Shown: piece by piece, positions 6,262 to 58,094 of the stretch
Position numbering within the stretch: the stretch's first letter is position 1
Layout of the letters: each line of letters opens with the position of its first letter
Source of the DNA: a virus
Length of the DNA stretch: 64,000 bases
IMG/VR virus record: IMGVR_UViG_3300035162_002243
Coordinates: 1-64,000 of that record
Reading direction: 5' to 3' (one strand)
The notes under the pieces: model-generated
What the model saw: the letters and a program-made list of their open reading frames with translations, nothing else
The model's database searches: none
Told to the model about the DNA's origin: nothing
Translations under genes and position numbers: made by a program

Positions 6262-6293
6262 GTATATACAAACTAAGCAAAAGGGCAAAGCAT

Positions 6294-6602: not shown

Positions 6603-6634
6603 GGGTTGACATCGGCCACAAAAGGCTGTATAAT
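6598..6634 (+). promoter_or_regulatory. Early promoter 10 (TTAGGGG class)
   Basis: TTGACA (6606-6611), 17 bases, TATAAT (6629-6634). The leader to the next gene is longer (about 50 bases). Confidence 0.9.
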
Positions 6635-6690
6635 ACATAGTATATTAAGTAAGAAACTTAATACTTTTTTATAACTTGAGGGCAAACAAC

Positions 6691-9873: not shown

Positions 9874-9925
9874 CGTGCAATCTAAGTGTCTGTCGCAGTG
9901 GTGGGTTTTGTTCGTGGAGTTTGTT

Positions 9926-11481: not shown

Positions 11482-12164
11482 TTAAACTTTTTCTTCCTGT
11501 GAAATATTTTTGAGTACGCATCACTTAGATAAAACTTTAATGCACTATCTCGCTTGATGCCTTCTTCGTTAATCTCAGTTTCCATTTCCCAGTCTTCTCT
11601 CTTGAACGGAATGATTTGTGCAAGTGGCTCGCCGGGTGCTAAAATAAAATCGTCTTGCATAGCAACGCCGGGCCAGTTGTTCCAAGGAACATCAATAGTG
11701 TCTGTGTCAATAATAGCTGGATATAATTTAAACCGCTCCTCAAAATGATAAAACGGACTTTGGATAATACAACTATAGCCAGGTGGTGTTTCAATACGCC
11801 ACGGCACACTAAATGTTATATAATCTTTTTTTGTGCCATTCACGGCAACAGGGCATTGCGAATGTTCGTGTCCTTCTTGTGGGCTTTGATTCTGCCACCC
11901 CTGTGGATATGTTCTGCTGAACCCTTCATGCTCTTCGTCACGTTGATACGTTTGAATACGTTGCTCTACAGGGTTGAATATAATGTATCCACTAGTGATA
12001 GTATCGTATACTGGCATACATTTTTTAATTGTAGGAGGACTGTTATGTGGTTGTCCTACCCACGGTGTTGTTTTATTATACCAATCAGGTCTAACTTTGC
12101 TCGCTGGCTGTGGCGGATAGTTGTTGTGTACAGCGGCATCACCACATATGAATTTAATTTTCAT
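11478..12164 (-). CDS. Conserved hypothetical protein (228 aa)
   Basis: 228 aa, unknown. Features: VRPDWYNKTTPW near residue 25, a PVYDTITSGYIIFNP segment, and a SVPWRIETPPGYSCIIQSPFYHFEERF core that is typical of a conserved cupin-like protein of unknown function in phages and proteobacteria. The second half contains DDFILAPGEPLAQIIPFKREDW, again cupin/double-stranded beta-helix-like. Coupled to helicase and nitrilase genes by four-base overlaps. Confidence 0.7.
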   Translation of the reverse strand: MKIKFICGDAAVHNNYPPQPASKVRPDWYNKTTPWVGQPHNSPPTIKKCMPVYDTITSGYIIFNPVEQRIQTYQRDEEHEGFSRTYPQGWQNQSPQEGHEHSQCPVAVNGTKKDYITFSVPWRIETPPGYSCIIQSPFYHFEERFKLYPAIIDTDTIDVPWNNWPGVAMQDDFILAPGEPLAQIIPFKREDWEMETEINEEGIKRDSALKFYLSDAYSKIFHRKKKFK

Positions 12165-13609
12165 TCGTCATCGCCACCTAGGTTGTTAATAAAGCTACGC
12201 AATTTAGTTGAGTCAATCTCTGCACCTTTAACTTTGCCTACCCTGTCACCTTGTTTAGGATCTACGTGTGTAGACTCCATTGAACTACTGCGTTTCAAAT
12301 TACTTACAATACTGTTAGTAGCACTAGCACTACCGTGCCCACTGTTACTATAACCATCATCATCGTCATCATCGTCACAGTCTACAATGCGTAGTGTGTC
12401 TACATCAAAGCCTAGATCAATCTTTTGTCCTACGCCGCCACTGTTACGTGTCTTCATTAACTGTAGTTGATAGCGCCCGCGTTCACGCATTGCTCTGCTT
12501 GTAAAGATACCAAACACGTTGTCTGCTGTTTGTATCTTACTCAAGCCACCACTAATGTGCGAGTGATCAAATTCAATCTCCTCAACAGCACCACGGTTCA
12601 ACTGTGCCGCTGTAACAAACACACAGTTCAATTCCATTGCTAAGTTACGCAACTCTTCTGATACGTACTTGTCTTTGATGTACAAGTTCTCTGCACTAAT
12701 CTTTGCACCGTTGGGCATAAGCAAATCTAAGTAGTCAATTAACAGTACGTCTACTTTGCGTCCTGTTTTAATTTCTAATTCTTTAATATAGCTACGTACA
12801 TCATTAGGTGTTTTGCCACTTGGCATATACTTAACTTGGAATGCACCTGCCTTCTTGCCAATCATCTTAACTTTCATTTCAACATCGTCAATGCTCTTAA
12901 ACACATCTCGACTTGGAATACCAGTTATCATACTGTCAACACGCATACTAACAAGACTTTCACTAAGCTCTAATGTTAGATACAAAACGTTCATACCTTG
13001 TAGTGCCCAGTTAACTCCTAGATTAGCTAAGAACAAACTCTTACCTGCACCCGAACCACCTGCAAAGATATTCAGTTCGCCTCTGTTAAAGCCACCAAAT
13101 AGTTTCTTATCGATAGCAGACCAGCCTGTGCTTACTTGTCCGTTACTGCTCTTAATGCTTTCTAGTCTAGCTCTTGGATCTTTAAAGTAATCTGTACCCA
13201 AGTCTTTTTGTAGACCAATTTGCACAGCCTTCTTAACTAGATCTTCTACTGGTCCATACTCACCTTTCTCAAGCAAGTCTGCACTTTGTAAGATAGCACT
13301 CTCTAATGCCTTATGTCTACTAAATGTTTCAAACTCTGAAAGCAACCAATCATAATGTGTTTCTTGTAAATCACCTGGATGTTTTAAGTCGCTGTGTGTT
13401 GCCGCATTAATCATATCAAATGTAGGCAATGCATTATGCTCAGTCACGTACTCATTAAGAAACTTTGCAGGGTCCTGCAAGCGTCTATCAAATGCCATTG
13501 GATCAAACACTGCCTGACAGCGTACAAAGCTCTCGGCATCTGTCATCATCATTTCAAGATATACTCGTTGTATATCATGCCCATAGTCTGTGTTTTGTCG
13601 TGTGCTCAT
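12161..13609 (-). CDS. gp41: Replicative DNA helicase, gp41/DnaB type (482 aa)
   Basis: Hexameric 5'-3' replicative helicase of the phage replisome, T4 gp41 family. RecA-like motor with Walker A AGGSGAGKSLFLA (about residues 183-194) and Walker B LLIDYLDLL (about 297-305); the N-terminal 150 residues are the DnaB-type helical domain. The C-terminal tail carries seven consecutive Asp and a Ser/Gly-rich linker (encoded at about 12336-12385), which is unusual. I start it at 13609 (MSTRQ): the promoter -10 (13621-13616) lies six bases upstream, so an earlier in-frame ATG at 13645 would be outside the transcript. There is no Shine-Dalgarno, so the mRNA should be leaderless. Confidence 0.95.
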   Translation of the reverse strand: MSTRQNTDYGHDIQRVYLEMMMTDAESFVRCQAVFDPMAFDRRLQDPAKFLNEYVTEHNALPTFDMINAATHSDLKHPGDLQETHYDWLLSEFETFSRHKALESAILQSADLLEKGEYGPVEDLVKKAVQIGLQKDLGTDYFKDPRARLESIKSSNGQVSTGWSAIDKKLFGGFNRGELNIFAGGSGAGKSLFLANLGVNWALQGMNVLYLTLELSESLVSMRVDSMITGIPSRDVFKSIDDVEMKVKMIGKKAGAFQVKYMPSGKTPNDVRSYIKELEIKTGRKVDVLLIDYLDLLMPNGAKISAENLYIKDKYVSEELRNLAMELNCVFVTAAQLNRGAVEEIEFDHSHISGGLSKIQTADNVFGIFTSRAMRERGRYQLQLMKTRNSGGVGQKIDLGFDVDTLRIVDCDDDDDDDGYSNSGHGSASATNSIVSNLKRSSSMESTHVDPKQGDRVGKVKGAEIDSTKLRSFINNLGGDDE

Positions 13610-13615
13610 ATTACT

Positions 13616-13645
13616 ATTATACAGCCTTATACCATTGTTTGTCAA
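13616..13645 (-). promoter_or_regulatory. Early promoter of the gp41 operon (AACACTTGACA class)
   Basis: Minus strand AACACTTGACA with TTGACA at 13645-13640, 18-base spacer, TATAAT at 13621-13616. The TAA stop of the carbamoyltransferase gene is part of the -10 hexamer. Confidence 0.9.
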
Positions 13646-14609
13646 GTGTTACTTTGGTTTTTGTTTGTGCAAGTACTGCACCTATACAACTTCCTGGGTC
13701 ACCTGGATTGTGCGGAACATGTACGTTCTTCCATTTACGACTTATTAAATCAACTGCTTGGCGGTTAAGTGCGCCACCGCCTGCTAGTGCTAAGTTAGCA
13801 GAGCCTGTTTCTTTCTTTGCCCACTTTGATAAGTGTTTAAGACTAAGTTCAAATATACGTTGCGTAGCCGCGGCAATATCTGCTATGTCTTGTTCAGATG
13901 TTAGTTCAGGTCTCCACCAGTTGCACCCTCTGTGTAAGTTTTCTCTCATACTAATCTTAGCAGTTCTATGAGGCGGAGTAACAATTTCATTTAGCATCAT
14001 TTTACTAAAGCGTTTGTAATTGCCGTTAGCCGCTAGTTGTGCCATCATATATTCATCACGCTGTGGAACTAGTCCGCATCGCTGTGTCATAGCACTGTAG
14101 AATAATCCTAAGCTATGCGGATAGCCTTGACTGTGTATCTTCTTTAGCTTATTGTCCTTACCGTGCCATATAGTCAGTGTTTCAAACTCGCCTATGCTGT
14201 CTATACATATCACAGCACAATCATCATGTGGTTGAGTGTAGTAAGCATATGCCGCATGACTTAAATGATGTTGTGTGTATTGAATTGGACAAGTAATATC
14301 CCAACGCTTGAGATATTCTTTAATATTATTTTCAGCATACAACCAACCTTGTCCGGCACGCCATTGGCGTAGTGTCTTTAAGAACGGACGCTCGTACCAA
14401 ACTATTTTGCTAGGGGAGCCAAAACTTTCTATTGCTGTCTTGAGCTGTGCTTCAGCAAAGTCAGGGTTATTAGGTAACCCTGTAAAGTCCTTCGCAAGAC
14501 TTGCCCATAACAGTTTAGTTTTCTTGTTGCTAGTTAGCCCTGCAACCTTTGTTTCAAAGACTGCTAGGCTGGCATCATGACTGTTACCAACCATACCCCA
14601 TGTAATCAT
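13617..14609 (-). CDS. Carbamoyltransferase N-domain protein (330 aa, lacks C-domain)
   Basis: Related to the NodU/TobZ carbamoyltransferase family, which moves a carbamoyl group from carbamoyl phosphate through a carbamoyl-adenylate to a hydroxyl of a sugar or antibiotic. Family signatures: HHLSHA (residues 114-119, metal-binding His block), AGGGALN (about 275-281) and NPGDPGSCIGAV. Length is 330 aa compared with about 550-600 for full-length members: the usual C-terminal domain is absent, as in a Kae1-like core alone. The gene ends within the helicase promoter and is preceded by AGGAG from the 40-aa gene. Activity without the C-domain is uncertain. Confidence 0.8.
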   Translation of the reverse strand: MITWGMVGNSHDASLAVFETKVAGLTSNKKTKLLWASLAKDFTGLPNNPDFAEAQLKTAIESFGSPSKIVWYERPFLKTLRQWRAGQGWLYAENNIKEYLKRWDITCPIQYTQHHLSHAAYAYYTQPHDDCAVICIDSIGEFETLTIWHGKDNKLKKIHSQGYPHSLGLFYSAMTQRCGLVPQRDEYMMAQLAANGNYKRFSKMMLNEIVTPPHRTAKISMRENLHRGCNWWRPELTSEQDIADIAAATQRIFELSLKHLSKWAKKETGSANLALAGGGALNRQAVDLISRKWKNVHVPHNPGDPGSCIGAVLAQTKTKVTLDKQWYKAV

Positions 14610-14620
14610 ATATATTTCTC

Positions 14621-14743
14621 CTACTTGTATATAAATGGATCGCGTTTTTGTAATTCTTCAAGTTTCTTTTTTAGTGCTTGTTTGCGCTTCCATTTTGTAT
14701 ACGGAGTTTTAATCCAACTCCAAAAGTTTTTTAAGTAAACCAT
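14621..14743 (-). CDS. Small basic protein (40 aa)
   Basis: A 40-aa frame (MVYLKNFWSWIKTPYTKW...) overlapping the end of the primase gene by 13 bases and ending just before the carbamoyltransferase start, whose ribosome-binding site TAGGAG includes its stop. Very basic and Trp-rich with an amphipathic helix (residues 4-38), so it could associate with membrane or DNA. Support: full occupation of the primase-carbamoyltransferase gap and codon use like its neighbours. Function unknown. Confidence 0.65.
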   Translation of the reverse strand: MVYLKNFWSWIKTPYTKWKRKQALKKKLEELQKRDPFIYK

Positions 14744-15714
14744 TTTTTTGCTCTCAATCTAATTTTTAGTTCGTTTGACTCAGCGGCATTAGCAATGCTA
14801 TACAATGTATATAGTCTACCGTATTTTGCAACTGCGTCACCAATGTCATTAATTGTACTATCCCAGTCTGGTAAACTTACAGACCAACCTAGTTCGATTG
14901 CTTGGTCAATTAATTTACTTCCTGCTTCATCTCTATCAGGTACAACAATAACTTGCTTGCCTACTCTATTAATTAGCATAGCTTGCTGGTCTTTTATTTC
15001 ACTTCCGAGTAATGCACACCCATCTACGTGTATGGCATCCATTGGTCCTTCACACACAATAACAAACGCTTTGTTTTGAGTTTGCTCGTCGAGTCCGTAT
15101 ACATATCCAACTTGTTGTTCACTCATGTACTTGTATTTGCTATCTGGTTGCACTGTTCTGCCAGTCCATCCCACAATACGCTTTTCAAAGTAAAACGGAA
15201 TAATTAGTCTCTCACGGTATGCTAAACTAGGACACCAGTAGTATGATGTGTCATCTAAGTTAAGATTGCGCTCACTCATGTATTCTAGTATTTTTAAACT
15301 ATGCTTATTGAAGTCTGTTATATCTGTAATTTTTATAGCATTGTCTGGCAACGGTACAGTGTTGAACTTAGGCAGTTCGATTACTTGTTGTGTTATTGCA
15401 AAGCCTTCATTCTCTTGCATAACTTGTAATGCAAGTTTATTAATAACATCGTCGGGTGCATTCATCCATTGCAACAGTTTGCGCAATTTGCCGCTGATGT
15501 TACGACCTTGTTGCCAGCTTGCTTTGAATCCACAGTTGAAACAGTGATAGCTCACACCGTCATCTGCATTAGCTATTAGTCCGCCACGCTGTCTAGTGTC
15601 AGCAGTATTGCTATTGTGTACACAACAGGGTGCATTAAACGAAACCCACCCACTAGGAGTTTGTTTGCGCTTTGCTGGCAAGTATGCTGTAAGTGTTTCA
15701 TAGACAATGCTCAT
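14731..15714 (-). CDS. gp61: DNA primase, gp61 type (327 aa)
   Basis: Primase that makes RNA primers for lagging-strand synthesis together with gp41. N-terminal zinc-binding site with cysteine/histidine ligands around residues 30-33 and CFNC at 58-61, then a TOPRIM domain: VIVCEGPMDAI (E221) and VVPDRDEAG (D259, D261). Length (327 aa) agrees with T4 gp61 (342 aa). The start codon is six bases downstream of TATAAT at 15726-15721, with no Shine-Dalgarno, indicating a leaderless mRNA. It heads an operon with the 40-aa gene and carbamoyltransferase. Confidence 0.92.
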   Translation of the reverse strand: MSIVYETLTAYLPAKRKQTPSGWVSFNAPCCVHNSNTADTRQRGGLIANADDGVSYHCFNCGFKASWQQGRNISGKLRKLLQWMNAPDDVINKLALQVMQENEGFAITQQVIELPKFNTVPLPDNAIKITDITDFNKHSLKILEYMSERNLNLDDTSYYWCPSLAYRERLIIPFYFEKRIVGWTGRTVQPDSKYKYMSEQQVGYVYGLDEQTQNKAFVIVCEGPMDAIHVDGCALLGSEIKDQQAMLINRVGKQVIVVPDRDEAGSKLIDQAIELGWSVSLPDWDSTINDIGDAVAKYGRLYTLYSIANAAESNELKIRLRAKKWFT

Positions 15715-15720
15715 AGTATT

Positions 15721-15749
15721 ATTATACTATCGTTTGTCTCTAATGTCAA
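15721..15749 (-). promoter_or_regulatory. Early promoter of the primase operon (AACACTTGACA class)
   Basis: AACACTTGACA with TTGACA at 15749-15744, 17-base spacer, TATAAT at 15726-15721; the ATG follows after six bases. Confidence 0.92.
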
Positions 15750-15758
15750 GTGTTTTTT

Positions 15759-16526: not shown

Positions 16527-16552
16527 AATAATTTTATCCCTAACACTAGTTG

Positions 16553-16560
16553 TATTTATT
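16553..16560 (-). promoter_or_regulatory. Late-type promoter element AATAAATA
   Basis: AATAAATA on the minus strand, 26 bases before the start of the 255-aa gene. Confidence 0.55.
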
Positions 16561-16565
16561 GGATT

Positions 16566-17700: not shown

Positions 17701-17711
17701 TTTGTAATTTT

Positions 17712-18224: not shown

Positions 18225-18225
18225 T

Positions 18226-20942: not shown

Positions 20943-20976
20943 AATATGCCACCGTATTGCTTCTGTATTGTATTAT

Positions 20977-22689: not shown

Positions 22690-23461
22690 ATTGATATTTA
22701 ACTATATCTGCTACTACTTTTTCAAAGTCATCTAGTCGTAACATGTTAGGTCCGTCACTTGGTGCATTGTCCGGGTTAGGGTGTACTTCTAGAAAGAAAT
22801 TCCTAATACCCAAAGCACTACCTGCGCGACATAGACCAGGAACGTAATCCCTATTGCCACCGCTACTGCTTCCGTTGCCGCCAGGTTTCTGTACGCTGTG
22901 TGTGGCATCAAGTACAACAGGATAATCATAATTATTAAGCATGTAGTCCAAGCCAGTAAAATCAACGACCAAAGTATTATATCCAAAACTAGTTCCTCTC
23001 TCGGTTATCCAAACCTCTTTAGCACCTTCTGTCTTAGTTAATATACCCTTCATATCCCACGGTGCAAGGAACTGTCCTTTTTTAATATTAACAATCTTAT
23101 CTGTTTCACAAGCCGCTTGTAACAAGTCAGTTTGTCTACAAAGGAATGCAGGAATTTGTAATACATCTACACACTCATTAAAGTACGTTGTGATCATTTC
23201 AATTTGATCAATATCGTGTACATCTGTTAGTGTTTTAACACCATGCACTTCTTTAATTAGCTTAAAGTCATTTAGAGTGTTAGCAAGTCCTACACCTCGT
23301 TTATTACCTAGGCTAGAACGATTTGCTTTATCGAAACTTGCTTTAAAGATATATTCTACACCGTGTTTGTCGCATATTGCTTTACACTTCTCTGCAATAT
23401 GTGATGACTGACTTAATGACTCATGCTGGCACGGTCCTGCTATAATTCTCAGTTGATACAT
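22682..23461 (-). CDS. kdsA: Kdo-8-phosphate synthase (259 aa)
   Basis: Condenses phosphoenolpyruvate with arabinose-5-phosphate to Kdo-8-phosphate. Signatures: AGPCQHES (residues 8-15), KASFDKANRSS (40-50), TDVHDIDQ, DVLQIPAFLCRQTDLL, KKGQFLAPWDM, TERGTSFGYNTLVVD, DATHSVQKPGG and EVHPNPDNAPSDGPNML: the complete family set. 259 aa is slightly short of the usual 280. The start at 23461 follows AAAGGAAAAACAA; a longer frame to 23506 runs through a hairpin region and lacks a ribosome-binding site. Overlaps hemE by eight bases. Confidence 0.95.
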   Translation of the reverse strand: MYQLRIIAGPCQHESLSQSSHIAEKCKAICDKHGVEYIFKASFDKANRSSLGNKRGVGLANTLNDFKLIKEVHGVKTLTDVHDIDQIEMITTYFNECVDVLQIPAFLCRQTDLLQAACETDKIVNIKKGQFLAPWDMKGILTKTEGAKEVWITERGTSFGYNTLVVDFTGLDYMLNNYDYPVVLDATHSVQKPGGNGSSSGGNRDYVPGLCRAGSALGIRNFFLEVHPNPDNAPSDGPNMLRLDDFEKVVADIVKYQYE

Positions 23462-24668: not shown

Positions 24669-26186
24669 TTAATTCCAGTCTATTTTTTCGATTGTAAACG
24701 GGTACTCTGCTTCTTTGTAAAATTTCTTACGCTGAGTTAGATGTCGCTTCGCGTACTTGCATGTTGATGTCAAGTCCCATATTTGTACGAAGTCTTTGTC
24801 TTTCGCAATACGAACTCCACGTCCGATTGATTGTATTACTCTTACGAAACTCTTTCCAGGCTCAAGCAGAACCATGTTAAAGATGCGTGGTATATTAAGG
24901 CCTACTGCCGCAACACCGTATGTCGCAATAATAACTTCATTAGTGCCTTCTTTAATTGTGTCGTAAGTTTGTTTCCTGTCCTTTACTTTTACTGCACCGC
25001 TTACAAACGTGCTGTTAGGTATTAGTTCTGCTAACATTTGTCCTGCACTAATCCTGTCTACTAGTATTAGCGTGTTACCTGATTGCGAAACTTGATTCAT
25101 CATTTTAGCAATATATGTTAGTCTTGCTTCATTTGTTGTTAGATACTTTAGTTCGCTTTGGTAATCACTGTGTGCCACTGTGTCTATTAGTTGACATACG
25201 TTAACATGACATTTTGATAATACACCTTTGTCTTGTAATGACTTAGCACTGATGCTACCAATTACTGGACCTAGACTTGCATGAATACTTTCAAACTCAA
25301 ACTTCTCTCTAGGCACAGTGCCTGTTAGTCCCCAACGTATTGGAGCATTCTTTAAGTTGCGAGTAAGCAAGTTCTTAAGAACTTCTGCTTTTGCCATGTG
25401 TACTTCGTCGACAATAACTGTGCTTACACCATCTAGAAACTCTGCTAGTGATAACACTGCTGAGCCATCTTTGTGCTTCTTGTCAAGTATATTTAAACTT
25501 TGCCAAGTGCAAATAGTGTGAGTCTTACCTAGGTTCTTTCTGTCGCCGAAGTACACACCAACATCAAGCCCACAGTTAATATAGTCTTCTTCAGTTTGTT
25601 CTACTAACGACTTGTTAGGAACAATAACTAGACTACGACCGTAAGGCTCAGTTATATGTGATAAGGTTGCTGTGGTAATTGTTTTACCTGCGCCAGTAGC
25701 AATCTGTTGCAGGCTTTGCGGGTTATCAAGGAAGTTGTTAATAGCTTCCACTTGATAGTCACGCAATATAATTTCAGTGCCTTCTACAGGATGCCCTTCA
25801 GGCCATACTACACCTTGGTCTGCCCAATAGCGTTCTGTAACAGGAGTAAAGTCTAAACTAATAGGATGCCTGCGATCATCAATAGCTGTAATTTGCACAT
25901 CATTGCGTTCTAGTACTCCTTGTACTACGTCAAGATGGTTGACATATCCTGTGCCGCCAATACCAAAGAAAGCAACCTTGCCATCCCATCGTCCTAGCTT
26001 ATACTGAGGCATGTGCTTTGCATACGGCACTTCGAACTTTAGTGCGGCTGAAATCTTGCGCCGCATGTCTACATCAAGTCCTTCTAACTTAATGTTTACT
26101 TCATCTTCAATAATTAATTTACACGAACGCACGTATGTATTTCCTCTCGTTTCGATCCCAAAGTCCACCAACTGCAATATTGTCAT
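24669..26186 (-). CDS. uvsW: ATP-dependent DNA/RNA helicase UvsW (up to 505 aa)
   Basis: Superfamily 2 helicase that in T4 unwinds branched DNA and R-loops, ending origin-dependent replication. Motifs: LRDYQVEAINNFL (residues about 141-153, Q-type motif), ATGAGKTIT (Walker A, 163-171), VDEVHMAKA (DEVH box, about 265), LTGTV (motif III), then ATYGVAAVGLNIP and QSIGRGVRI (motif VI). The N-terminal YKLGRWDGK block matches the UvsW DNA-binding domain. Two starts are possible: ATG at 26186, which overlaps the upstream gene by 68 bases, or GTG at 26132, preceded by GAGAGG and overlapping it by 14 bases. The second looks better. Confidence 0.95.
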   Translation of the reverse strand: MTILQLVDFGIETRGNTYVRSCKLIIEDEVNIKLEGLDVDMRRKISAALKFEVPYAKHMPQYKLGRWDGKVAFFGIGGTGYVNHLDVVQGVLERNDVQITAIDDRRHPISLDFTPVTERYWADQGVVWPEGHPVEGTEIILRDYQVEAINNFLDNPQSLQQIATGAGKTITTATLSHITEPYGRSLVIVPNKSLVEQTEEDYINCGLDVGVYFGDRKNLGKTHTICTWQSLNILDKKHKDGSAVLSLAEFLDGVSTVIVDEVHMAKAEVLKNLLTRNLKNAPIRWGLTGTVPREKFEFESIHASLGPVIGSISAKSLQDKGVLSKCHVNVCQLIDTVAHSDYQSELKYLTTNEARLTYIAKMMNQVSQSGNTLILVDRISAGQMLAELIPNSTFVSGAVKVKDRKQTYDTIKEGTNEVIIATYGVAAVGLNIPRIFNMVLLEPGKSFVRVIQSIGRGVRIAKDKDFVQIWDLTSTCKYAKRHLTQRKKFYKEAEYPFTIEKIDWN

Positions 26187-27354
26187 ATACTATACGCAGA
26201 TCGGTGTGTTCTGCATACTGTGATACGTTATTAAAAGTTAACTGCATAGTTTCAAATGACACTGTACAGCTAGGAACCCATTGGGATTTTAGTATTGGCT
26301 TAGGTAACTTGTTATTACTAATATACACTACTTTTGTATTTTTGTCAAGAGGATTATTTAAATTCTCCTTCTTAATGTATTCATTAAACGGATCAGCACC
26401 GTCCTTTCTAAACCATACAGTCATTTGTTCACTAGGCAAAATATACTTGAGTGCGCTGTGCATTGCTAATAGCTGATCGCTGGCTTTGTTGGGAGTTAAC
26501 ACTACTAGTATTGGAAATCTATTAATTTCTAATAATGCAGATGCAACAGTGTCCAATGTTGTTTGTTTTTTATCTATAAGAAAAACTGCATGATCTCTAT
26601 TAATAATTTGTTGTGATAGCGTACTATAGCTTTGAACACTTGGCTCAACATTATTCATATCAAAATAATGCAATCCGTACAAGTAGCGTCTTTCGTAGTA
26701 CAATGCTAAGGTGTCTTTTGTACATTCGCCTAATGTTTCTGTTAATGTATTAACAGCGTCTTGTGGAATATTTTTAATATCATATCCATATACTCCGGGA
26801 ATGTAATCAGCTTTATTATCTTCATATATTAATAACTGATTATAGATTTCAATAATGTCGTCATGTATAACAAACTTAGTTTCAAATCTATTTGCAATTT
26901 CAACTAACTTAAACACGTTACTTGGAGTAAAAGGAAAACAATGTGTGTTGTCTTTATACGAGTGTTCGTTTATGTTTAAATGGTCTATTCCGCGAAGTTC
27001 TTCAATGCGACTAATAATCTTTTTTGAGAAAGGAAATCTAATGCCAAGTACAGCCTCATCTTTGTAATCTAGTATTTTAAGCCAATGCGATCTGTCAATC
27101 TCTCGCAACTCGTGCTTTAATTGACTGGCCGCATATGCAACATTGACATCTCTTTTTTCAAATTGATCAATGTATTGAAGTAGTTTAGTTTTAACTAACT
27201 CATACTGCCTATCAGTCAATGCTATTTGCTTTCTTAACTGATTGTTAATACTATTCAATATACCTATGTCAGATTTATCAATTACAAATTCTTCATCAGG
27301 AAATAGTAAGTATGCTAAACAGTCTTCGCATGTGAGTGGTTTTTCTATTGTCAT
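26119..27354 (-). CDS. Conserved protein upstream of uvsW (411 aa)
   Basis: 411 aa, unknown function, found next to UvsW in marine T4-like phages as far as I recall. N-terminal CEDC pair (residues 9-12), helical middle, and a second half with ILVVLTPNKASDQLL and a KVVYISNNKLP strand reminiscent of an inactive helicase or RecA-like fold, without Walker A. Its promoter (27362-27390) puts TATAAT only seven bases before the ATG and there is no Shine-Dalgarno: likely leaderless. It heads the operon that carries uvsW, kdsA, hemE and kdsB. Confidence 0.65.
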   Translation of the reverse strand: MTIEKPLTCEDCLAYLLFPDEEFVIDKSDIGILNSINNQLRKQIALTDRQYELVKTKLLQYIDQFEKRDVNVAYAASQLKHELREIDRSHWLKILDYKDEAVLGIRFPFSKKIISRIEELRGIDHLNINEHSYKDNTHCFPFTPSNVFKLVEIANRFETKFVIHDDIIEIYNQLLIYEDNKADYIPGVYGYDIKNIPQDAVNTLTETLGECTKDTLALYYERRYLYGLHYFDMNNVEPSVQSYSTLSQQIINRDHAVFLIDKKQTTLDTVASALLEINRFPILVVLTPNKASDQLLAMHSALKYILPSEQMTVWFRKDGADPFNEYIKKENLNNPLDKNTKVVYISNNKLPKPILKSQWVPSCTVSFETMQLTFNNVSQYAEHTDLRIVYDNIAVGGLWDRNERKYIRAFV

Positions 27355-27361: not shown

Positions 27362-27390
27362 ATTATACATGATTATAACTTAGAAGTCAA
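27362..27390 (-). promoter_or_regulatory. Early promoter of the uvsW-kds operon (AACACTTGAC class)
   Basis: AACACTTGACT with TTGACT at 27390-27385, 17-base spacer, TATAAT at 27367-27362. Overlaps the end of the glycan cluster. Confidence 0.9.
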
Positions 27391-30886: not shown

Positions 30887-31562
30887 TCATCATATCCTGT
30901 AGTTCCTGTTTCCATTCTTTGTTATATTCACAGTCCCTGTAGTTTTCAAACCAAGGGCCGCCTTCTGTGTAGTGTAATAGTTTTGGTGTACCATCCTTTG
31001 GCTCTTCGTAGTGTCCTACTAACCAATTCCATTCAGGTGATATCTCACCAATTAAGTCATCACTTTCTAGCCAACTAAATCTGTGAAAGTATGCTCCGTT
31101 AAGTTCTTTCTCATTTACTAAGTCAATGTTAAGTCTTTTGTTAGCAGGATGGCCGCAGTTAATAAGCATCATACTAGACCAATTTTTACGTGGATAAACT
31201 GTTTGTCGTTGTCCATCCATCTTCGTAGCTTCTTTAGGTGCGTAGTCGTGTTGTACACACATAACCGCTTTTGTATCATCTGCTTGTGCAAACAACTCTG
31301 TAATATCTGTTCTAAGCAACATGTCGCAATCCATAAATACTGCCCAGCCACTAAAGTTAGCAAGTTCAGGAACTAAAAAACGAGTAAATGTAAATTCAGT
31401 ACTAGCAAGTTTGTCCGGCGATCTTGAATACCAGCCTTGGCGTTTAAGATCATTTTGCTTCAGCGGTTTGACTTCAGCGGTTGGACTGTGCCTAAGTATA
31501 CTATGTTTGCACACTTGGTATGCCATATCTTCTCTTGTGTCGTAACCTACAAATACTTTCAT
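30879..31562 (-). CDS. GT8-like glycosyltransferase (227 aa)
   Basis: Starts MKVFVGYDTREDMAYQVCKHSI, typical of GT8-like phage and LPS transferases. Metal-binding DxD in GWAVFMDCDMLLRTD (residues about 72-86); RKNWSSMMLINC and LLHYTEGGPWFENYRDC near the C-terminus complete the donor and acceptor site. 227 aa is the usual size of these short enzymes. Four-base overlap with the nucleotidyltransferase fusion gene. Confidence 0.8.
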   Translation of the reverse strand: MKVFVGYDTREDMAYQVCKHSILRHSPTAEVKPLKQNDLKRQGWYSRSPDKLASTEFTFTRFLVPELANFSGWAVFMDCDMLLRTDITELFAQADDTKAVMCVQHDYAPKEATKMDGQRQTVYPRKNWSSMMLINCGHPANKRLNIDLVNEKELNGAYFHRFSWLESDDLIGEISPEWNWLVGHYEEPKDGTPKLLHYTEGGPWFENYRDCEYNKEWKQELQDMMNE

Positions 31563-32323
31563 GTGTTTCTTCTTTCTATATCTTCTTCAATGCACTCACT
31601 GCCCCATTGTATTTCAAGGATGTGTGCGTTTTCTGTACCAGTGTTAGATGCTAAGTGCCAAACTTCTTTGCCTATTTCATAAGGCATACCGTGTTGCTTT
31701 AACTGTAAATCACCTGTCTGGCCGTTCCATTCAGTCTTCATATCGACTACGCCTTCAAGCACTATCCATTGCTCTGAACGTTTAAAATGTTTTTGATCAC
31801 TAAGTGATTTGCCTGGATATATTACAAGTTCTTTTACTTTGTACCCTTGCGCAGGCTTGTGATCTAGCACACGCCAGTAACCCCAATCACGCTCAGTCTT
31901 TTGTGTTTTCCATTCGTCTAGTATCCAGCTTGAACTGTTAGCTTTGTTTTCTCCACCGACACCAAATACAAACTCTACACCTTCAACTGCCATCTCGGGA
32001 ATGTTCTCAGAGGTTCGATCGCCGCCATTGGCAAATATTATTTTATCGTTGGGATAGTGTGCTTTAACTTGTTTTATAAAATTTATAGCAGAATCATCAT
32101 CGTCCATAAATGTAAAAACTTCGTCTACCATTTGTAAGTTGTTTACAATGCATAGGCGTTCATTCCAAGGCATAAATGCCCTGCCCTTCTTACGCTCAAG
32201 CCATTCGTCTGAATTTAGGCCAACGATTAATCGATCGCCTAATTTCTTTGCTTCTTTAAAATATTTAACATGGCCGCTATGTAGTGGGTCAAATCCACCT
32301 GTGACTAATACTACTTTGTTCAT
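31559..32323 (-). CDS. Nucleotidyltransferase fused to a sugar-isomerase-type cupin (254 aa)
   Basis: Residues 1-130 are a cytidylyl/adenylyltransferase: GGFDPLHSGHVKYFKEAKKLG (9-29, with the HxGH-type active site) and NGGDRTSENIPE, like the C-terminal domain of HldE (RfaE), which activates heptose-1-phosphate. Residues about 145-254 are a cupin like the C-terminus of mannose-1-phosphate guanylyltransferases (WGYWRVLDHKPAQGYKVKELVIYPGKSLS...QWIVLEGVV). The fusion could convert and activate one sugar in a single protein. Its start is five bases after a late-type CATAAATA element, suggesting a leaderless late mRNA. It heads the operon down to 27373. Confidence 0.85.
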   Translation of the reverse strand: MNKVVLVTGGFDPLHSGHVKYFKEAKKLGDRLIVGLNSDEWLERKKGRAFMPWNERLCIVNNLQMVDEVFTFMDDDDSAINFIKQVKAHYPNDKIIFANGGDRTSENIPEMAVEGVEFVFGVGGENKANSSSWILDEWKTQKTERDWGYWRVLDHKPAQGYKVKELVIYPGKSLSDQKHFKRSEQWIVLEGVVDMKTEWNGQTGDLQLKQHGMPYEIGKEVWHLASNTGTENAHILEIQWGSECIEEDIERRNT

Positions 32324-32328: not shown

Positions 32329-32336
32329 TATTTATG
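32329..32336 (-). promoter_or_regulatory. Late-type promoter CATAAATA, five bases before the start codon
   Basis: CATAAATA on the minus strand, then TCTAT and ATG. In T4 the late element occupies -13 to -6, which would put +1 on the A of the start codon. Confidence 0.7.
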
Positions 32337-45368: not shown

Positions 45369-47528
45369 TTATCTTAATCCAGCTAAATGTTGGATTCTTG
45401 CCATTTCATCATCGTTCCCACTGAGTAATTGTGACATTACACCGTGAGCTTGTTCAACATTATGCTCGCCATAGTCTTTTTCGACTGCGGTTAGCACTGC
45501 TGTTTCACCTTTTGGAAAAGCATTTGTAGTATAATCGTACATACTCTTAATATACTCTTCTAAAGGAATCTCTTCGTTCTTTTGTTCCTGTTCGCCTTCT
45601 TCTGACTCGTGGTCCTTGTCCTTCATCACAGTGCCATCAGGCATTGTGTGTGTAGGCTCTTTACCGAATGCCATATCTAGTAGTTTATAACCACCGTATA
45701 TTGCCGCTACTACTGCCGCAATAGGAAGCGCATTACGTGCCGCCATTGTAGCAATTTGGTTAATATTTGGAATATTAGCTAGTGCGCCTTTGCCAAATGC
45801 CATTAAGTCATCTGCGCTAGACACAATTTTATCGCCAGCCGCCGCCAGTGCATCTGGTATTGCATCCATGGCATCGCCTACTTTGTCTACTACATATGCA
45901 CCACCGCCTATTGCGGCTGATTTTCCTGGATTTTTAACTATTGTTTTAGCTGTGCCTGCAACACCTTTGCCTGCTAAATTAGCAATAGTACTAAGTGTTT
46001 CTTTATTGCCGCCAATTTTTGGAAGTACTTTTGCAAGTGCGCCACCAACAATTTTTAATAAATTTTCATCTAGTTGACTTTCAGCTACTAATTCTTCTAA
46101 TGTAGTCTGCGGTCCACGTTCGTGATTTGAACTAGAAATAATAGTATCTAAGTGTTCAGCATAATCGTGATCCATGTCAACTACACCTTCGTCAGCATCG
46201 TGAATCCCGTTGCCATTATCGTCAACCCAATGATCGCCATTTTCGTCGTGTACATCATGTGAACAATTTGTAGTTGGATTATGTGGTGTATCTCCGCAAT
46301 CTTTACAGTGATACTCACTACCCATAGCTTCGTTTTGTTTTGCATCTTGAGTTGTTTGATCATTTTCGCGATTAATAATAGATAAAACTACATCACTGCC
46401 AGGTCCTTGATCGCCCCAATCATCTGTAACAACATCTACTATTTTTTCAATTTTTAGTTCTGCTATTGGAAATGTTATGTTTCGATTAGTGATTGCACCA
46501 ACTACTTCATCATACCAAGAATCGATCATTTGTTCATCAGCTTCTGATCCACCTTCGCCTAATAACTCTTCCGGTCCTAGATCTACTACTTTATTTGCTT
46601 CACTTACTAACTTATAAATGTACGGAAATACATCTTTTAATTCTTCGTTAAACTGTTTGATAGTAAGTTGAGCAGTCCAGTCAGTTGCAATGTCTTCTGG
46701 AACATCTTCCATTACAGTTTGTTCAAAGTTTGCAAATGACTCTTTGTAATATGATTCTCTTTGAAGCATTTCTACAGTCTTCTTAACTGTATTAAGTCTT
46801 TCGTTAACTGTGTCCATATACCCTGCTAAACCTTCAGCCATTACACTTGAGCGATTCATGTATGTTTTAAATTTACGTAGGTTTGCTAATTCTTCTGAAA
46901 GACCTGTAATATGCTTGCCGAATACATCGTAAGCATTGCCACCTTCTGCAACGTGACGAGCCATTGCTCTGGCACCGTTTAAGTGTCTGAATGGATATTT
47001 AAATCTTTCACCGGCATCACTTTCAATATAAATGCTGTGTACGTTTTGTGTACGTCCTGCGGCATTTTCCATATTAACTGGGCCTGCGTGTTTAACAACT
47101 AGTCTTGCTGTTCCTACATTCTGGTAGCTAGTTCTGCTAGTACCATACATTTTTGATTCGCTCATTTGTTTCTCCGTGCTAAGGTATTCGTAATCTCGTT
47201 TATCTAAGTTTGATTTAGTAATATCTCGTGTGTCAAAATTTAACATTCTTTTCTTTGCAAATACCCGCAATTCTTTTAAGAAGTCATACCATTTAGATTT
47301 AAGTACATTTTCGTCTTCTGAAAACAAGTCTTGCCCGTACATAATTGTAAGACTATCTTGATCAATGTTTACATTAACCTTTTTACCGTCTGCAAAATCA
47401 AATTCAAAGAATCTAGCTTCGTTAGGTTTATTAGTGATAGTTGCTGACTCGTCACCTACTGTTATGTTAGGAAAACGTCCACGTATTTTATTAAATAGTT
47501 CTGTCGAAATAGTTTCAAGGTTTTTCAT
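45369..47528 (-). CDS. Large conserved virion-associated protein (719 aa)
   Basis: 719 aa, next to the terminase. The N-terminal half (KMYGTSRTSYQNVGTARLVVKHAGPVN, YPFRHLNGARAMARHVAEGGNAYDVFG) is seen in marine T4-like phages as a structural protein of unknown function. Residues about 395-440 hold CKDCGDTPHNPTTNCSHDVHDENGDHWVDDNGNGIHDADEG: a cysteine/histidine cluster followed by EF-hand-like DxNG/DxD loops that could bind zinc and calcium. Residues 515-610 are Gly/Ala-rich with a hydrophobic segment (LPIAAVVAAIYGGYKLLDM). Its start is five bases after GATAAATA, so leaderless late expression is likely. Confidence 0.65.
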   Translation of the reverse strand: MKNLETISTELFNKIRGRFPNITVGDESATITNKPNEARFFEFDFADGKKVNVNIDQDSLTIMYGQDLFSEDENVLKSKWYDFLKELRVFAKKRMLNFDTRDITKSNLDKRDYEYLSTEKQMSESKMYGTSRTSYQNVGTARLVVKHAGPVNMENAAGRTQNVHSIYIESDAGERFKYPFRHLNGARAMARHVAEGGNAYDVFGKHITGLSEELANLRKFKTYMNRSSVMAEGLAGYMDTVNERLNTVKKTVEMLQRESYYKESFANFEQTVMEDVPEDIATDWTAQLTIKQFNEELKDVFPYIYKLVSEANKVVDLGPEELLGEGGSEADEQMIDSWYDEVVGAITNRNITFPIAELKIEKIVDVVTDDWGDQGPGSDVVLSIINRENDQTTQDAKQNEAMGSEYHCKDCGDTPHNPTTNCSHDVHDENGDHWVDDNGNGIHDADEGVVDMDHDYAEHLDTIISSSNHERGPQTTLEELVAESQLDENLLKIVGGALAKVLPKIGGNKETLSTIANLAGKGVAGTAKTIVKNPGKSAAIGGGAYVVDKVGDAMDAIPDALAAAGDKIVSSADDLMAFGKGALANIPNINQIATMAARNALPIAAVVAAIYGGYKLLDMAFGKEPTHTMPDGTVMKDKDHESEEGEQEQKNEEIPLEEYIKSMYDYTTNAFPKGETAVLTAVEKDYGEHNVEQAHGVMSQLLSGNDDEMARIQHLAGLR

Positions 47529-47533: not shown

Positions 47534-47541
47534 TATTTATC
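47534..47541 (-). promoter_or_regulatory. Late-type promoter GATAAATA before the 719-aa gene
   Basis: GATAAATA on the minus strand, then TTAAT and ATG; overlaps the terminase stop (47537). Confidence 0.75.
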
Positions 47542-49123
47542 CATAACCGCCACTAATGAAGATAGGCATTGGCGGCTCGTAGTCACTTTCGTTATCTGCT
47601 TGTGTAAAGGTATTATAGATTCTTGGATCCCAGTCTTTAAGTACTGCCATCATGCGCAATGCAAGTAGCGTAGCACTAACTAAGTCGTCATTAGATCCTG
47701 GTTTAGCACCAAAACTTGTACCAGTAGCAACATATGCTTTTAATTCTGATAATAATGCGGCACTGTTAATAGTAATTTTGTCGTTCTCGATCATTGTTTT
47801 AAGTCTACTACATGCTGTAATTTTAGTACCATGTGTAGTGTTAAATCCTTTACGGAACTTTCTCACATGTCCTTTGCGCATAGGTTCACTTACAAATAAC
47901 CCTGGAATGTTTTCTTCACCTACATCATTAATAACAATTAATGCGGCTTCGCCAATACTGTTGTTTTCAACACTCCAGTATATGTTACTGCCATTTGTTC
48001 CGCAACTGTCTTTTAGGTGTGTACATATATCTTTTAGTATCCTAATTTGTGCAGGAATAGGAGTTTCGTTATGGCGCCATTCTCCAATTTGTTTATAACT
48101 AGGAAGCTCAAATATTTGTATGGCCGCAAAGTCACCACCTGTACCCATACTTGGATCTAGTGCTACTGCATAATTTTCATCAGGAGTAGGCTTTCCAAAC
48201 CAACGTGTTTGCCCCATATTTAATATAGGAGTAGTTGATTCCATTGATGCTAACTTAATACTATTAATTAATGTTTCGTCGAATACAAGGAATTCACAGC
48301 CATACTCACGACGGAACTTTTCTTCACCAATTCGACCAATTTCGTTACGCTTCCATTCTTCGTCTCTATCTGGATGCTCGTCCCAACTACAGGTAAATCC
48401 ATGAAATCCGTTTGAGCCGATGTTGCCTTCGTTACCGTGTGCATCAAACTTGTTTTGCGATTCTTTCCAGATAATAGCAAATGTATCTTCATCACTGTTT
48501 GGTGTACTTGTAATAATAGCGCGGCCACCTGTTGCTAGTGTAGGCGATATTGATGTCCAAAATTCTTCTGCAATGTTTGGATTAACAAATGCAAACTCGT
48601 CACAGTATAGTAATGATATGGACATACCACGTCCTGTATTACCTGTTGTGGTAGCACTAACAATACGAGAACCGTTTTCAAATTCCATACTACCTTTGTT
48701 GTAGTTTGTAACACCTGCACGTATATGGTCTGGACAACTTTCGTATACATACCTAATACGTTGCATAATTTCTTGTGCGCCTGTGTACTTGTGTGCGGCA
48801 ATTAGAATAGTTTGATCTGCAAAAAACATTGCATACCAAGCAAGGTATATTGCGGCAGTAGTAGTCTTTCCTGTTTGTCTTGGTAACATGTTAACATTAA
48901 ATCTATGATCGTGATAAGATTTAAGTAGTCGTGTTTGGTACTCAAATGGATCAAACAATAGTTTACCTTTTACAGGATGCTGAATAAAAGAAAACTTTCT
49001 AGCAAAGTGCATGTATCCGTTAACAGGATCCATACATTTCATTAAGTCTTCAACTTGTGCATCCGTAAATGTTTCTGTTTTATTCGCCTTCTTGATTAAG
49101 ACGCCGTCTAATGATGTACTCAT
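47537..49123 (-). CDS. gp17: Terminase large subunit gp17 (528 aa)
   Basis: ATP-driven DNA packaging motor and headful nuclease. ATPase domain: NMLPRQTGKTTTAAIYL (residues about 78-94, Walker A), LLYCDEFAFV (about 172-181, Walker B). Nuclease domain: YAVALDPSMGTGGDFAAIQIF (about 310-330), the RNase H-like site. 528 aa, typical for marine T4-like gp17. The small subunit gene is at 51065. The ATG follows AGTAAATA by five bases and has no Shine-Dalgarno. Confidence 0.97.
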   Translation of the reverse strand: MSTSLDGVLIKKANKTETFTDAQVEDLMKCMDPVNGYMHFARKFSFIQHPVKGKLLFDPFEYQTRLLKSYHDHRFNVNMLPRQTGKTTTAAIYLAWYAMFFADQTILIAAHKYTGAQEIMQRIRYVYESCPDHIRAGVTNYNKGSMEFENGSRIVSATTTGNTGRGMSISLLYCDEFAFVNPNIAEEFWTSISPTLATGGRAIITSTPNSDEDTFAIIWKESQNKFDAHGNEGNIGSNGFHGFTCSWDEHPDRDEEWKRNEIGRIGEEKFRREYGCEFLVFDETLINSIKLASMESTTPILNMGQTRWFGKPTPDENYAVALDPSMGTGGDFAAIQIFELPSYKQIGEWRHNETPIPAQIRILKDICTHLKDSCGTNGSNIYWSVENNSIGEAALIVINDVGEENIPGLFVSEPMRKGHVRKFRKGFNTTHGTKITACSRLKTMIENDKITINSAALLSELKAYVATGTSFGAKPGSNDDLVSATLLALRMMAVLKDWDPRIYNTFTQADNESDYEPPMPIFISGGYG

Positions 49124-49128: not shown

Positions 49129-49164
49129 TATTTACTCAAAAAAATAGAGCCCGGAGGCTCTATT
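49129..49164 (-). promoter_or_regulatory. Stem-loop plus late promoter cassette before the terminase
   Basis: Minus strand: AATAGAGCC/GGCTCTATT hairpin (49164-49143) followed by a run of seven T, then AGTAAATA (49136-49129) and GTAGT ATG. A terminator of the upstream gene and the late promoter of gp17 are fused. Confidence 0.8.
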
Positions 49165-52407: not shown

Positions 52408-53580
52408 CTACTTTAAGTTTGGCCCACTAAACGCATTTTGTACGGCATTAGTAGCCTTAGAAAAGACTGCACCTACTCCGCCATTTTGTTGTACATAGTT
52501 TGATGCACCTACTACAACTGCCGCAGATGCCAGTGTAGAAATATCACCGCCGCTACCGCCTTTAGGAAATGCTATGCCTGCTACACCACTGGTATCAATG
52601 CCAGCTGATTGTCCAATTTGTCCTATTGCACTTCCAATTAATTCTTGCCCAATACCACTTCGTGTTAGCCCGCCTGCGTTTCTAAATACGTTTGCGGCTT
52701 GTAGTACAGTCCCAAAGTTTGCTGTGCCACTTGTAATTTGTCCCAGTACTCCCATGCCGCCAGCAAGTACTCCGCTACCGCCTAGTAATGCTGATGCACC
52801 ACCGCCTGCTAATGAAATAGGACTTGGTGTTTTATCATAATGCTCTTCTGCAAATCCCTTAGGACCATTTACTCCAATTGGGCCTCTGCTCATATGCACA
52901 GTTTCGTAATCTAAAGTCATTTGACTTTGCACTAAGTCACTTGCACTATGATCCATTGTGTCATGTTGCCAAGAACTTATCATAGGATTAATTAGTGTAA
53001 ATGAAGTATAAGTTTTTCTAGCTAGTTGGCTAATAGTAATACTAGTAAAAAACGGCTTATAACTATCATTATCAAGTCCGTATCTATACTGGGCACCGTT
53101 GATAGAATTTCCTCTATCATATTGAATGTTTGTTGGTTCAATAGCACCAGCAGGCCCAACACTAGCATAGTTGCCATCTCTATAGTAATACCTATAGTAT
53201 GCTTCCCACATTGCTGTAGTAACACCAAAGTTATCATCGTGAAAACTAATATTAACTGGTTGATAATCAATACGTTTTTGTACAACACGCTTTCTGTTGT
53301 ATTGATGTTTTATGTCTGTTTGAATATTATATGCAGGTAACTGCGCTGTCTTAACAAGCATATTAAGTTCATTCATATGCTTTTGTCTAAGTTGCGGAAT
53401 TACTGCTGTTACATCTGGATTAATATTAAAGGTAACGTGGTAAAGAAACTTTACTTTAGGTGTTAGTCTGTGACTATCGTCAACAAACATACGTGCGGCA
53501 TGTTGAAAGTCGCCCAGTGTACCTTTAGGGTTTAACGCACCCGATGCTAAATTGTCTAAAAAACCGTTTAAGAAGCTCAT
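52408..53580 (-). CDS. Baseplate-tail tube junction-like protein (gp54/gp48-like, 390 aa)
   Basis: N-terminal region (VKFLYHVTFNINPDVTAVIPQLRQKHMNELNMLVKTAQLPAYNIQTDIKHQYNRKRVVQ) resembles the tail-tube fold of gp19, as expected for the initiator proteins gp48/gp54 that start the tube on the baseplate. Residues about 248-345 are Gly/Ala/Ser-rich (LLGGSGVLAGGMGVL) and probably flexible. I choose gp54-like on position next to gp18-gp19, with gp48-like as alternative. Its ATG lies five bases after GCTAAATA; no Shine-Dalgarno. Confidence 0.6.
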   Translation of the reverse strand: MSFLNGFLDNLASGALNPKGTLGDFQHAARMFVDDSHRLTPKVKFLYHVTFNINPDVTAVIPQLRQKHMNELNMLVKTAQLPAYNIQTDIKHQYNRKRVVQKRIDYQPVNISFHDDNFGVTTAMWEAYYRYYYRDGNYASVGPAGAIEPTNIQYDRGNSINGAQYRYGLDNDSYKPFFTSITISQLARKTYTSFTLINPMISSWQHDTMDHSASDLVQSQMTLDYETVHMSRGPIGVNGPKGFAEEHYDKTPSPISLAGGGASALLGGSGVLAGGMGVLGQITSGTANFGTVLQAANVFRNAGGLTRSGIGQELIGSAIGQIGQSAGIDTSGVAGIAFPKGGSGGDISTLASAAVVVGASNYVQQNGGVGAVFSKATNAVQNAFSGPNLK

Positions 53581-53585: not shown

Positions 53586-53593
53586 TATTTAGC
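53586..53593 (-). promoter_or_regulatory. Late-type promoter GCTAAATA before the gp54-like gene
   Basis: GCTAAATA on the minus strand, then TTAGT and ATG. The second base deviates from the TATAAATA consensus. Confidence 0.6.
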
Positions 53594-53624: not shown

Positions 53625-53650
53625 ATAAAAAAAGGGACAATTAAGCCCCT
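53625..53650 (-). terminator. Terminator after gp19
   Basis: AGGGGC/GTCCCT stem (one G-U) with a 6-base loop, then TTTTTTT on the minus strand; lies between gp19 and the gp54-like promoter. Confidence 0.8.
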
Positions 53651-57743: not shown

Positions 57744-57751
57744 GGTAAATA
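57744..57751 (+). promoter_or_regulatory. Late-type promoter GGTAAATA before the HNH-like gene
   Basis: GGTAAATA then CAAT and ATG: four bases to the start codon, so nearly leaderless. No good Shine-Dalgarno is closer. Confidence 0.5.
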
Positions 57752-57755: not shown

Positions 57756-58094
57756 ATGAGACCTTTATGCGAATGCGGATACCGCCCAGCGGCAATAAAC
57801 TACAAAAAAGACAATAGAACATTCTATCGCAAGCAATGTGAAACATGCTTGCACCATGGAGAGAAGAAGTGGGGAATACCTAAATGGCATCAAGCAGGGT
57901 ATCGACAAAAAGATACATGTGAACGGTGTAGTTTTAATAGTCCGTATGTTGAGCAATTTAATGTGTATCATATAGATGGGAATCTAAACAATACACTGCC
58001 AAGTAATTTAAAAACTGTTTGTGCTAATTGCCAGCGTGTTATGCAGAAGCTAGGCGTAAAGTGGAAACAAGGCGACCTTGTACCTGACTTTTAA
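57756..58094 (+). CDS. HNH-like zinc protein (112 aa)
   Basis: Small HNH-type protein with two zinc knuckles: CECGYRPAAINY...CETCLHHGEKKWG (residues about 5-41) and CERCSFNSPY (about 56-65), then VYHIDGNLNNTLPSNLKTVCANCQR (about 72-96), the beta-beta-alpha HNH core with His and Asn. Such proteins are common in marine T4-like phages and may act as endonucleases or packaging nickases. Its end overlaps the dNMP kinase gene tail to tail by 56 bases. Confidence 0.8.
   Translation: MRPLCECGYRPAAINYKKDNRTFYRKQCETCLHHGEKKWGIPKWHQAGYRQKDTCERCSFNSPYVEQFNVYHIDGNLNNTLPSNLKTVCANCQRVMQKLGVKWKQGDLVPDF

Follow-up and report, generated by a model that had tools for sequence, protein, structure and literature searches.

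Most known cases of leaderless translation in Gram-negative organisms are single repressor genes or scattered bacterial genes. The closest phage examples are the leaderless repressor mRNAs of lambda (cI) and PY54 (cI and cro), whose promoters lie immediately upstream of the start codon; the PY54 cI and cro RNAs were mapped by rapid amplification of cDNA ends and begin with AUG (PMC4488713). The criterion for 'TA-led' leaderless genes of bacteria is a signal that resembles a -10 box and lies some 10-12 bases ahead of the start codon (BMC Genomics 2011, PMC3160421). Excerpts of the AR9 transcription paper describe phage transcripts as often leaderless, and those of a start-site mapping study in S. 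meliloti count 171 leaderless mRNAs; the term leaderless is absent from the available passages of a review of T4 post-transcriptional control. The literature covered also included a paper on the T4 late transcription complex, reviews of T4-like cyanophages and of leaderless translation, and a paper on a marine methylophage. Here we report on a 64,000-base stretch of viral DNA (the window; positions 1-64,000 of the 66,300-base IMG/VR record IMGVR_UViG_3300035162_002243, a virus fragment) in which the genes for a DnaB-like replicative helicase, a DNA primase and a 411-amino-acid protein, together with late genes behind TAAATA boxes, are, judged from their sequences, very probably leaderless transcription units. 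As in lambda and PY54, the promoter abuts the start codon; unlike those single regulatory genes of temperate phages, the genes here serve replication, packaging and the virion and use two promoter classes, and their RNA starts are predicted ones. The -10 distance described for TA-led genes is likewise found here, but those genes belong to cellular genomes and show a Pribnow box only, whereas these phages, which otherwise use Shine-Dalgarno sequences, have a late-sigma box as well.

The coordinates of the three sigma70 units were read directly from the sequence, on the minus strand:

13616..13645, minus strand: helicase promoter, sigma70 type (TTGACA 13645-13640, 18-base spacer, TATAAT 13621-13616; 12/12 consensus)
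12161..13609, minus strand: DnaB-like replicative helicase, 482 amino acids from the ATG at 13609 (phrog_19, 4.1e-75; DnaB_C); predicted RNA start on the A of the ATG
15721..15749, minus strand: primase promoter, sigma70 type (TTGACA 15749-15744, 17-base spacer, TATAAT 15726-15721; 12/12 consensus)
14731..15714, minus strand: DNA primase, 327 amino acids from the ATG at 15714 (phrog_47, 9.7e-38); predicted RNA start on the A of the ATG
27362..27390, minus strand: sigma70 promoter of the 411-amino-acid gene (TTGACT 27390-27385, 17-base spacer, TATAAT 27367-27362; 11/12 consensus)
26119..27354, minus strand: 411-amino-acid protein, function unassigned; predicted RNA start at the ATG or one base earlier

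The helicase unit reads TTGACA-18-TATAAT-agtaat-ATG and the primase unit TTGACA-17-TATAAT-aatact-ATG, each with six bases between the -10 and the start codon; in the 411-amino-acid gene, TTGACT-17-TATAAT-agtaagt-ATG, there are seven. Inspection of the upstream sequence revealed no Shine-Dalgarno-like sequence ahead of any of the three starts. An earlier note on this DNA had given these same distances for the genes it called gp41 and gp61 and for the 411-amino-acid gene, and had stated that all three lack a Shine-Dalgarno sequence; the sequence agrees exactly on both counts. Its gene names hold at the family level only (DnaB-like helicase and primase), its range, 12161-15749, takes in two coding regions where the actual feature is the promoter-start units, and it saw only the sigma70 units, although the leaderless layout is commoner at the late (TAAATA) promoters of the same window.

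Throughout the 66.3-kilobase (kb) record, the pattern TTGACN-N15-19-TATAAT-N5-8-ATG occurs exactly three times, at these three genes, and not at all in a backward control. The record holds 13 near-perfect sigma70 promoters (TTGAC, 16-18 base spacer, exact TATAAT): three have an ATG at 6-7 bases, eight have an ORF (open reading frame) start 32-64 bases off, and two have none inside 80 bases. Two of the eight leadered promoters additionally have an ATG 2 bases past the -10. A loose consensus scan of 9900-29500 found 58 promoters against 63.2 in shuffles, no excess, and a search allowing two mismatches likewise gave no excess over shuffles and is not used as evidence. Since the loose scan is at chance level, support for the units comes from their perfect matches, their position and their relatives.

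The strongest single result comes from the primase. Among 80 related loci, 76 have an ATG at the aligned primase start; four that gave no ATG (L127, L130-L132) were excluded from profiles. A start-anchored, gap-free profile of the 49 distinct 120-base windows, numbered with the A of the ATG as +1, is conserved at exactly -35 to -31 (TTGAC) and -12 to -7 (TATAAT), with a variable spacer between them and T at -1 in 49/49; from codon 2 onward conservation tracks codon position. This numbering puts the primase -35 and -10 elements where textbook sigma70 promoters have them, so the primase RNA most likely starts on the A of the ATG. Conservation of the 6-7 base spacing among relatives had been put forward as a check on the leaderless proposal, and at the primase it is borne out: among the 47 distinct 45-base upstreams, that of the window included, the -10 ends 5-7 bases before the ATG in 46 (6 in 41, 7 in four, 5 in one). 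In the remaining upstream the scoring script placed the -10 elsewhere, and base -1 is T in all 47.

At the other two genes the spacing is conserved in part. The helicase set comprised 80 sequences, namely the window and 79 of the 80 loci (the partial locus L075 was omitted). Thirty have a promoter at 5-7 bases; in ten others an exact TATAAT lies at 4-8 bases but no good -35 accompanies it. The remaining 40 lack the arrangement. The helicase N-terminus is conserved among relatives. On the helicase tree the leaderless label requires 16 changes, at least nine of them forced by well-supported branches, and several leadered relatives carry AAGGA-like sequences shortly ahead of the start. Base -1 in the leaderless group (n=40) is T in 21, A in 11, C in 6 and G in 2; to judge from these sequences, the initiator is less strict in the helicase than in the primase.

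The 411-amino-acid family has 12 members in 13 contigs. Seven of the 12 have an exact TATAAT at 6-7 bases, four have a shifted or variant -10 (TATAAT at 5 in G006; variants in G003, G004 and G007) and one, G005, has none. Two relatives, L084 (99% identical to the window protein) and L085, carry the layout too. In the window the gene lies upstream of, and overlaps the start of, a UvsW-like helicase gene. Its protein has no Pfam match and no named phage relative, and single family members give scattered weak matches only. The family profile finds weak MarR-type matches in the PDB (expectation value, E, 0.008). An AlphaFold model (mean predicted local distance difference test score 79.9) had no significant counterpart in the PDB (lowest E 0.03; T4 UvsW ranked third, at 0.044), and against BFVD it matched, at E below 0.001, uncharacterised phage proteins only. 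Present in 12 of the 13 contigs, the family is an orphan without a clear fold match.

A second promoter class has the same layout. Taking the TAAATA core of the T4-type late octamer TATAAATA as query, we surveyed ORFs of at least 100 amino acids, in their longest ATG frame, in 13 related marine contigs (n=1937; contig G010 was pattern-searched but lies outside the fetched set), with d the number of bases between promoter box and ATG. TAAATA stands at d=4-5 before 94 ORFs (64 at d=5, 30 at d=4) and before 0-7 at any other d from 0 to 14; TATAAT stands at d=6-7 before 29 (a peak of 22 at d=6, and 7 at d=7). Internal ATGs (n=42,108) gave 36 and 44, respectively, and 100 runs of a third-order Markov null gave means of 10.9 (maximum 21) and 5.6 (maximum 13). 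A second TAAATA group lies 12-30 bases upstream, before 234 genes in the marine contigs, 22 in T4 and 18 in S-PM2. A pyrimidine occupies -1 in 90/94 leaderless late genes versus 106/237 late boxes 13-30 bases away, and Shine-Dalgarno-like sequences precede 1/29 sigma70 leaderless and 16/94 leaderless late genes versus 210/282 leadered late genes.

These boxes share with the T4-type late promoters (gp55, gp33 and gp45) the TAAATA core, and the larger relatives encode a gp55 homologue. A phmmer search with T4 gp55 found homologues in 7/13 marine contigs (G001, G004, G007, G009, G011, G012 and G013) and in PA5oct; they were retained by an iterated profile, and the seven are the contigs with a length of at least 167 kb. 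The difference lies in the distance, for no ORF of T4 (0/172) or S-PM2 (0/132) has the core 4-5 bases before its ATG, theirs being 12-30 bases away, and neither phage has an ORF with TATAAT at d=6-7. That phages infecting Gram-negative hosts rarely use leaderless starts for replication genes, as the earlier note held, agrees with these two phages; as a general statement it goes beyond them. The T4 late octamer begins at -13 (PMC2988020). It then ends at -6, so by analogy d=5 would put +1 on the A of the AUG.

The late units of the window, and the hairpins beside them, are as follows:

49129..49134, minus strand: late core TAAATA of the terminase gene, at d=5; conserved in relatives
49138..49163, minus strand: hairpin and T run resembling an intrinsic terminator, directly upstream of the terminase late promoter, read from the sequence
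47537..49123, minus strand: terminase large subunit, 528 amino acids (phrog_36964, 5e-113), predicted leaderless late
53586..53591, minus strand: late core TAAATA of the tail-tube-like gene, at d=5; kept in 33/34 distinct relatives
53627..53650, minus strand: hairpin with T run, terminator-like, ahead of the tail-tube-like gene, from a hairpin scan
52408..53580, minus strand: tail-tube-like protein, 390 amino acids (phrog_13438, 7.3e-16), predicted leaderless late
47534..47539, minus strand: late core TAAATA of the 719-amino-acid virion gene, at d=5, from the sequence
45369..47528, minus strand: virion structural protein, 719 amino acids (phrog_13484), predicted leaderless late; family 9/16 leaderless
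32329..32334, minus strand: late core TAAATA of the 254-amino-acid gene, at d=5, from the sequence
31559..32323, minus strand: nucleotidyltransferase-like protein, 254 amino acids (phrog_7878, 8.1e-30), predicted leaderless late; family 9/21 leaderless
57746..57751, plus strand: late core TAAATA of the 112-amino-acid gene, at d=4, from the sequence
57756..58094, plus strand: 112-amino-acid protein (weak HNH endonuclease match, 8.3e-4), predicted leaderless late; family 8/11 leaderless
22695..22700, minus strand: TAAATA at d=5 ahead of a 325-amino-acid gene (21712-22689); rated weak because it lies inside the upstream reading frame and no conservation was seen

Leaderless members make up 10/13 of both the terminase large subunit and the tail-tube-like families. 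For the terminase we collected 78 of the 80 loci (L357 and L369 skipped), 47 of them distinct: an exact TAAATA stands at d=5 in 34, at d=4 in 7 and at d=7 in 3, a one-mismatch box stands at 5 in 2, and 1 has no box. The tail-tube-like collection (79 of 80, L429 skipped) contains 34 distinct sequences, with TAAATA at d=5 in 33; the exception, L445, has a more distant box and an AGGAG. At both genes the TAAATA layout is near-fixed. L445 and the tail-tube-like genes of G003 and G012 (distant late box, leader with a Shine-Dalgarno-like sequence) are natural switches between leaderless and leadered forms.

Transcription could instead begin 1-4 bases before the ATG and give very short leaders, an alternative that is doubtful without being far-fetched. 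A spacing of 7 does exist, in the 411-amino-acid gene and in 13 of the 30 helicases with a full promoter, and RNA starts may scatter by 1-3 bases. The modal spacings, however (6 for TATAAT, 5 for TAAATA), are those that place +1 on the A, and in the primase the TA dinucleotide at -1/+1 never varies. A one- or two-base leader would in any case be functionally near leaderless.

Rather unlikely, in our estimate, is that read-through RNAs of the upstream operon, with coupled re-initiation, supply most translation while leaderless RNA is minor. The helicase and primase sit in a same-strand gene series, and the upstream gene's stop codon falls within the helicase -10, 7 bases ahead of the ATG, which suits re-initiation. 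No promoter was found for 21/80 helicases, so these could be expressed from upstream. Against this, the exact promoter-ATG register and the T at -1 would drift were the RNA start irrelevant, and the primase is separated from its upstream gene by a 44-base gap without a Shine-Dalgarno sequence. A terminator-like hairpin lies 8-70 bases upstream of 22/94 leaderless late genes, the terminase and tail-tube-like genes of the window among them, versus 4/282 leadered late genes; it also precedes 1/29 sigma70 leaderless genes and 20/1532 other ORFs. Because such a hairpin directly upstream makes a longer upstream leader unlikely, read-through looks a poor alternative for the late leaderless genes behind hairpins; for the helicase and primase it may still be a source.

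It is improbable that the layout reflects genome compaction alone, with promoters packed into short gaps and leaderlessness without a role. The sigma70 leaderless genes do lie a median of 19 bases from the upstream ORF (at least 100 amino acids), but the median gap of leaderless late genes, 46 bases, is slightly above the 39 of leadered late genes, and TAAATA at d=7-11, about equally compact, precedes only 12 genes versus the 94 at d=4-5. Finally, that the real start codons lie further downstream, behind ordinary leaders, is highly improbable: although helicase codons 20-22 read ATG ATG ATG, no Shine-Dalgarno sequence precedes these downstream ATGs, conservation is codon-patterned from primase codon 2, the N-termini of the terminase, tail-tube-like, 719- and 112-amino-acid families are conserved from their first residues, and the depositors of phage HTVC008M annotated the same starts.

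Several further points weigh against leaderless transcription. The helicase layout is labile, with 40/80 sequences outside it (19 with distant or off-register promoters, a few of them weak, and 21 with no promoter found), and just 27/40 leaderless-type helicases have a pyrimidine at -1. Four of the 80 primase loci (L127, L130-L132) lack the promoter layout. The 49 primase sequences share ancestry and are not independent events, and the same holds for the 13 contigs, whose counts are not independent. The longest-ATG-frame rule mis-starts some genes, for example the G002 terminase. The first two bases of the T4 octamer (-13 and -12) are degenerate in these phages, and no gp55 was found in the window's 66-kb record, itself a fragment. 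With these points included, leaderless transcription of the helicase, primase and 411-amino-acid gene, as the earlier note had proposed, appears the best-supported reading.

The observed positions, their conservation, the null comparisons, the terminator-like hairpins and the gp55 homologue of the large relatives suggest the following scheme. That the promoters are used, where the RNAs begin, how ribosomes initiate on them and whether the layout serves regulation are in this scheme predictions from sequence. A host-type sigma70 RNA polymerase would bind the near-perfect promoters of the helicase, primase and 411-amino-acid genes, and the -12 to -7 hexamer would direct transcription to begin at the A of the start codon or at a neighbouring base. 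The mRNA would then open with 5'-AUG and be translated without a Shine-Dalgarno sequence; presumably 70S ribosomes carrying initiator tRNA would do this. At a later stage of infection, a late sigma of the gp55 type would act at the TAAATA boxes, with +1 again on the A of the AUG, and serve the terminase, the tail-tube-like protein, further virion genes and a few enzymes. Ordinary Shine-Dalgarno genes stand alongside the leaderless ones.

A broader interpretation, which we regard as evenly balanced, is that a marine jumbo phage clade and the SAR11 phage HTVC008M use leaderless starts for a set of genes served by two promoter classes in succession: the helicase and primase would be transcribed from sigma70 promoters, the packaging and virion genes from gp55 ones, and other genes would have Shine-Dalgarno starts. 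The choice between leaderless and leadered forms would then be a layer of temporal or ribosome-state control, and genes would switch between the two forms in evolution. Leaderless mRNA itself is a known kind. That replication and virion genes should use it, with a late-sigma box, is new as far as the literature searched goes, which reported no leaderless replication or virion gene set in such phages and left most subscription papers outside its reach. Conserved phage genes needed in quantity appear to depend on leaderless starts, and orthologues switch between leaderless and Shine-Dalgarno starts. This raises the question of what state the ribosomes are brought into by these phages, indicates a start signal that gene callers may overlook, and gives the layout a role testable in the cultured pair HTVC008M and Ca. 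Pelagibacter ubique HTCC1062.

Phage ribosome-altering genes yielded no general explanation for the leaderless preference: bS21 (PF01165) passes the cut-off in 2/13 contigs (G001 and G004) and IF3_C in 0/13. The bS21 genes lie at G001:C1:23004-23159 and G004:C1:332212-332364, and at 91228-91431 in HTVC008M. In four Pelagibacteraceae genomes, TATAAT-N6-7-ATG occurs 339 times versus 317 in the backward control (summed), and the full promoter pattern once versus once. At most, this makes it less likely that the phage took over the layout from a SAR11 habit.

Relatives of the window lie on contigs of up to 357 kb. Besides the terminase, the window encodes tail sheath, tail tube, UvsX- and gp32-like proteins. 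In 10 relatives, TTGACN..TATAAT-N5-8-ATG gave 26 matches versus 2 in the control, with none in 3/10. Among cultured phages, the Pelagibacter phage HTVC008M shows the late layout at 13 of 197 annotated starts, with TAAATA at d=5 in 12 and at d=4 in one (198 are annotated, one at base 1 being unusable). Raw TAAATA-N4-5-ATG occurs there 16 times versus 7 in the control, and 13 of the 16 are annotated starts; some stand, as in the window, behind terminator-like hairpins. It differs in genome layout, and its terminase, capsid, portal and sheath starts lack the TAAATA arrangement. No report of leaderless starts in HTVC008M was found in the literature searched.

The closest isolates are the PA5oct-like Pseudomonas jumbo phages (48% identity by helicase, 54-55% by terminase), followed by helicase by Phosso and Atu_ph07. 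Raw TAAATA-N4-5-ATG shows no excess over control in PA5oct, Atu_ph07, XaC1, SCTP-2, T4, P-SSM2, RaK2 or GAP32; counts are tiny in Phosso, Vibrio 2.275 and S-PM2, and Sinorhizobium phage phiM12 has 0 versus 0. The PA5oct ORF survey yielded TAAATA at d=4-5 in 1/258 and TATAAT at d=6-7 in 1. In Atu_ph07, Phosso, Vibrio 2.275, XaC1 and SCTP-2, neither the primase nor the helicase start shows the arrangement. The PA5oct primase, which as a query found one weak relative, has a similar unit, TTGACA-17-TATAAT-N6-GTG, differing in that the start would be GTG and that the annotated GTG lies six bases further upstream. That annotated GTG abuts the -10 hexamer (L166:1474-1500); the next GTG, six bases past the -10, is the likelier start. 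Ahead of the PA5oct terminase (MK797984, ~128830-128870), a terminator-like hairpin and T run stand a few bases before the ATG without a TAAATA, and the gene may have a variant late promoter near the hairpin.

Two minor observations concern other promoter regions. Upstream of 1448 in L168, the Atu_ph07 primase, TATAATAGTAATATA resembles a leaderless unit with ATA for ATG, and the annotated start lies ~30 bases past the -10. Early-region genes of the window (1300-6700, plus strand) and of G004 (C1:11000-24000; L192, L193) carry a repeated promoter-leader unit. In G004 it reads TTGACA-N16-TATAAT-aagaacatagggcaaac before many genes, and in the window TATAAT-gtatatac...agggcaaac, with AGGGC-type Shine-Dalgarno-like sequences.

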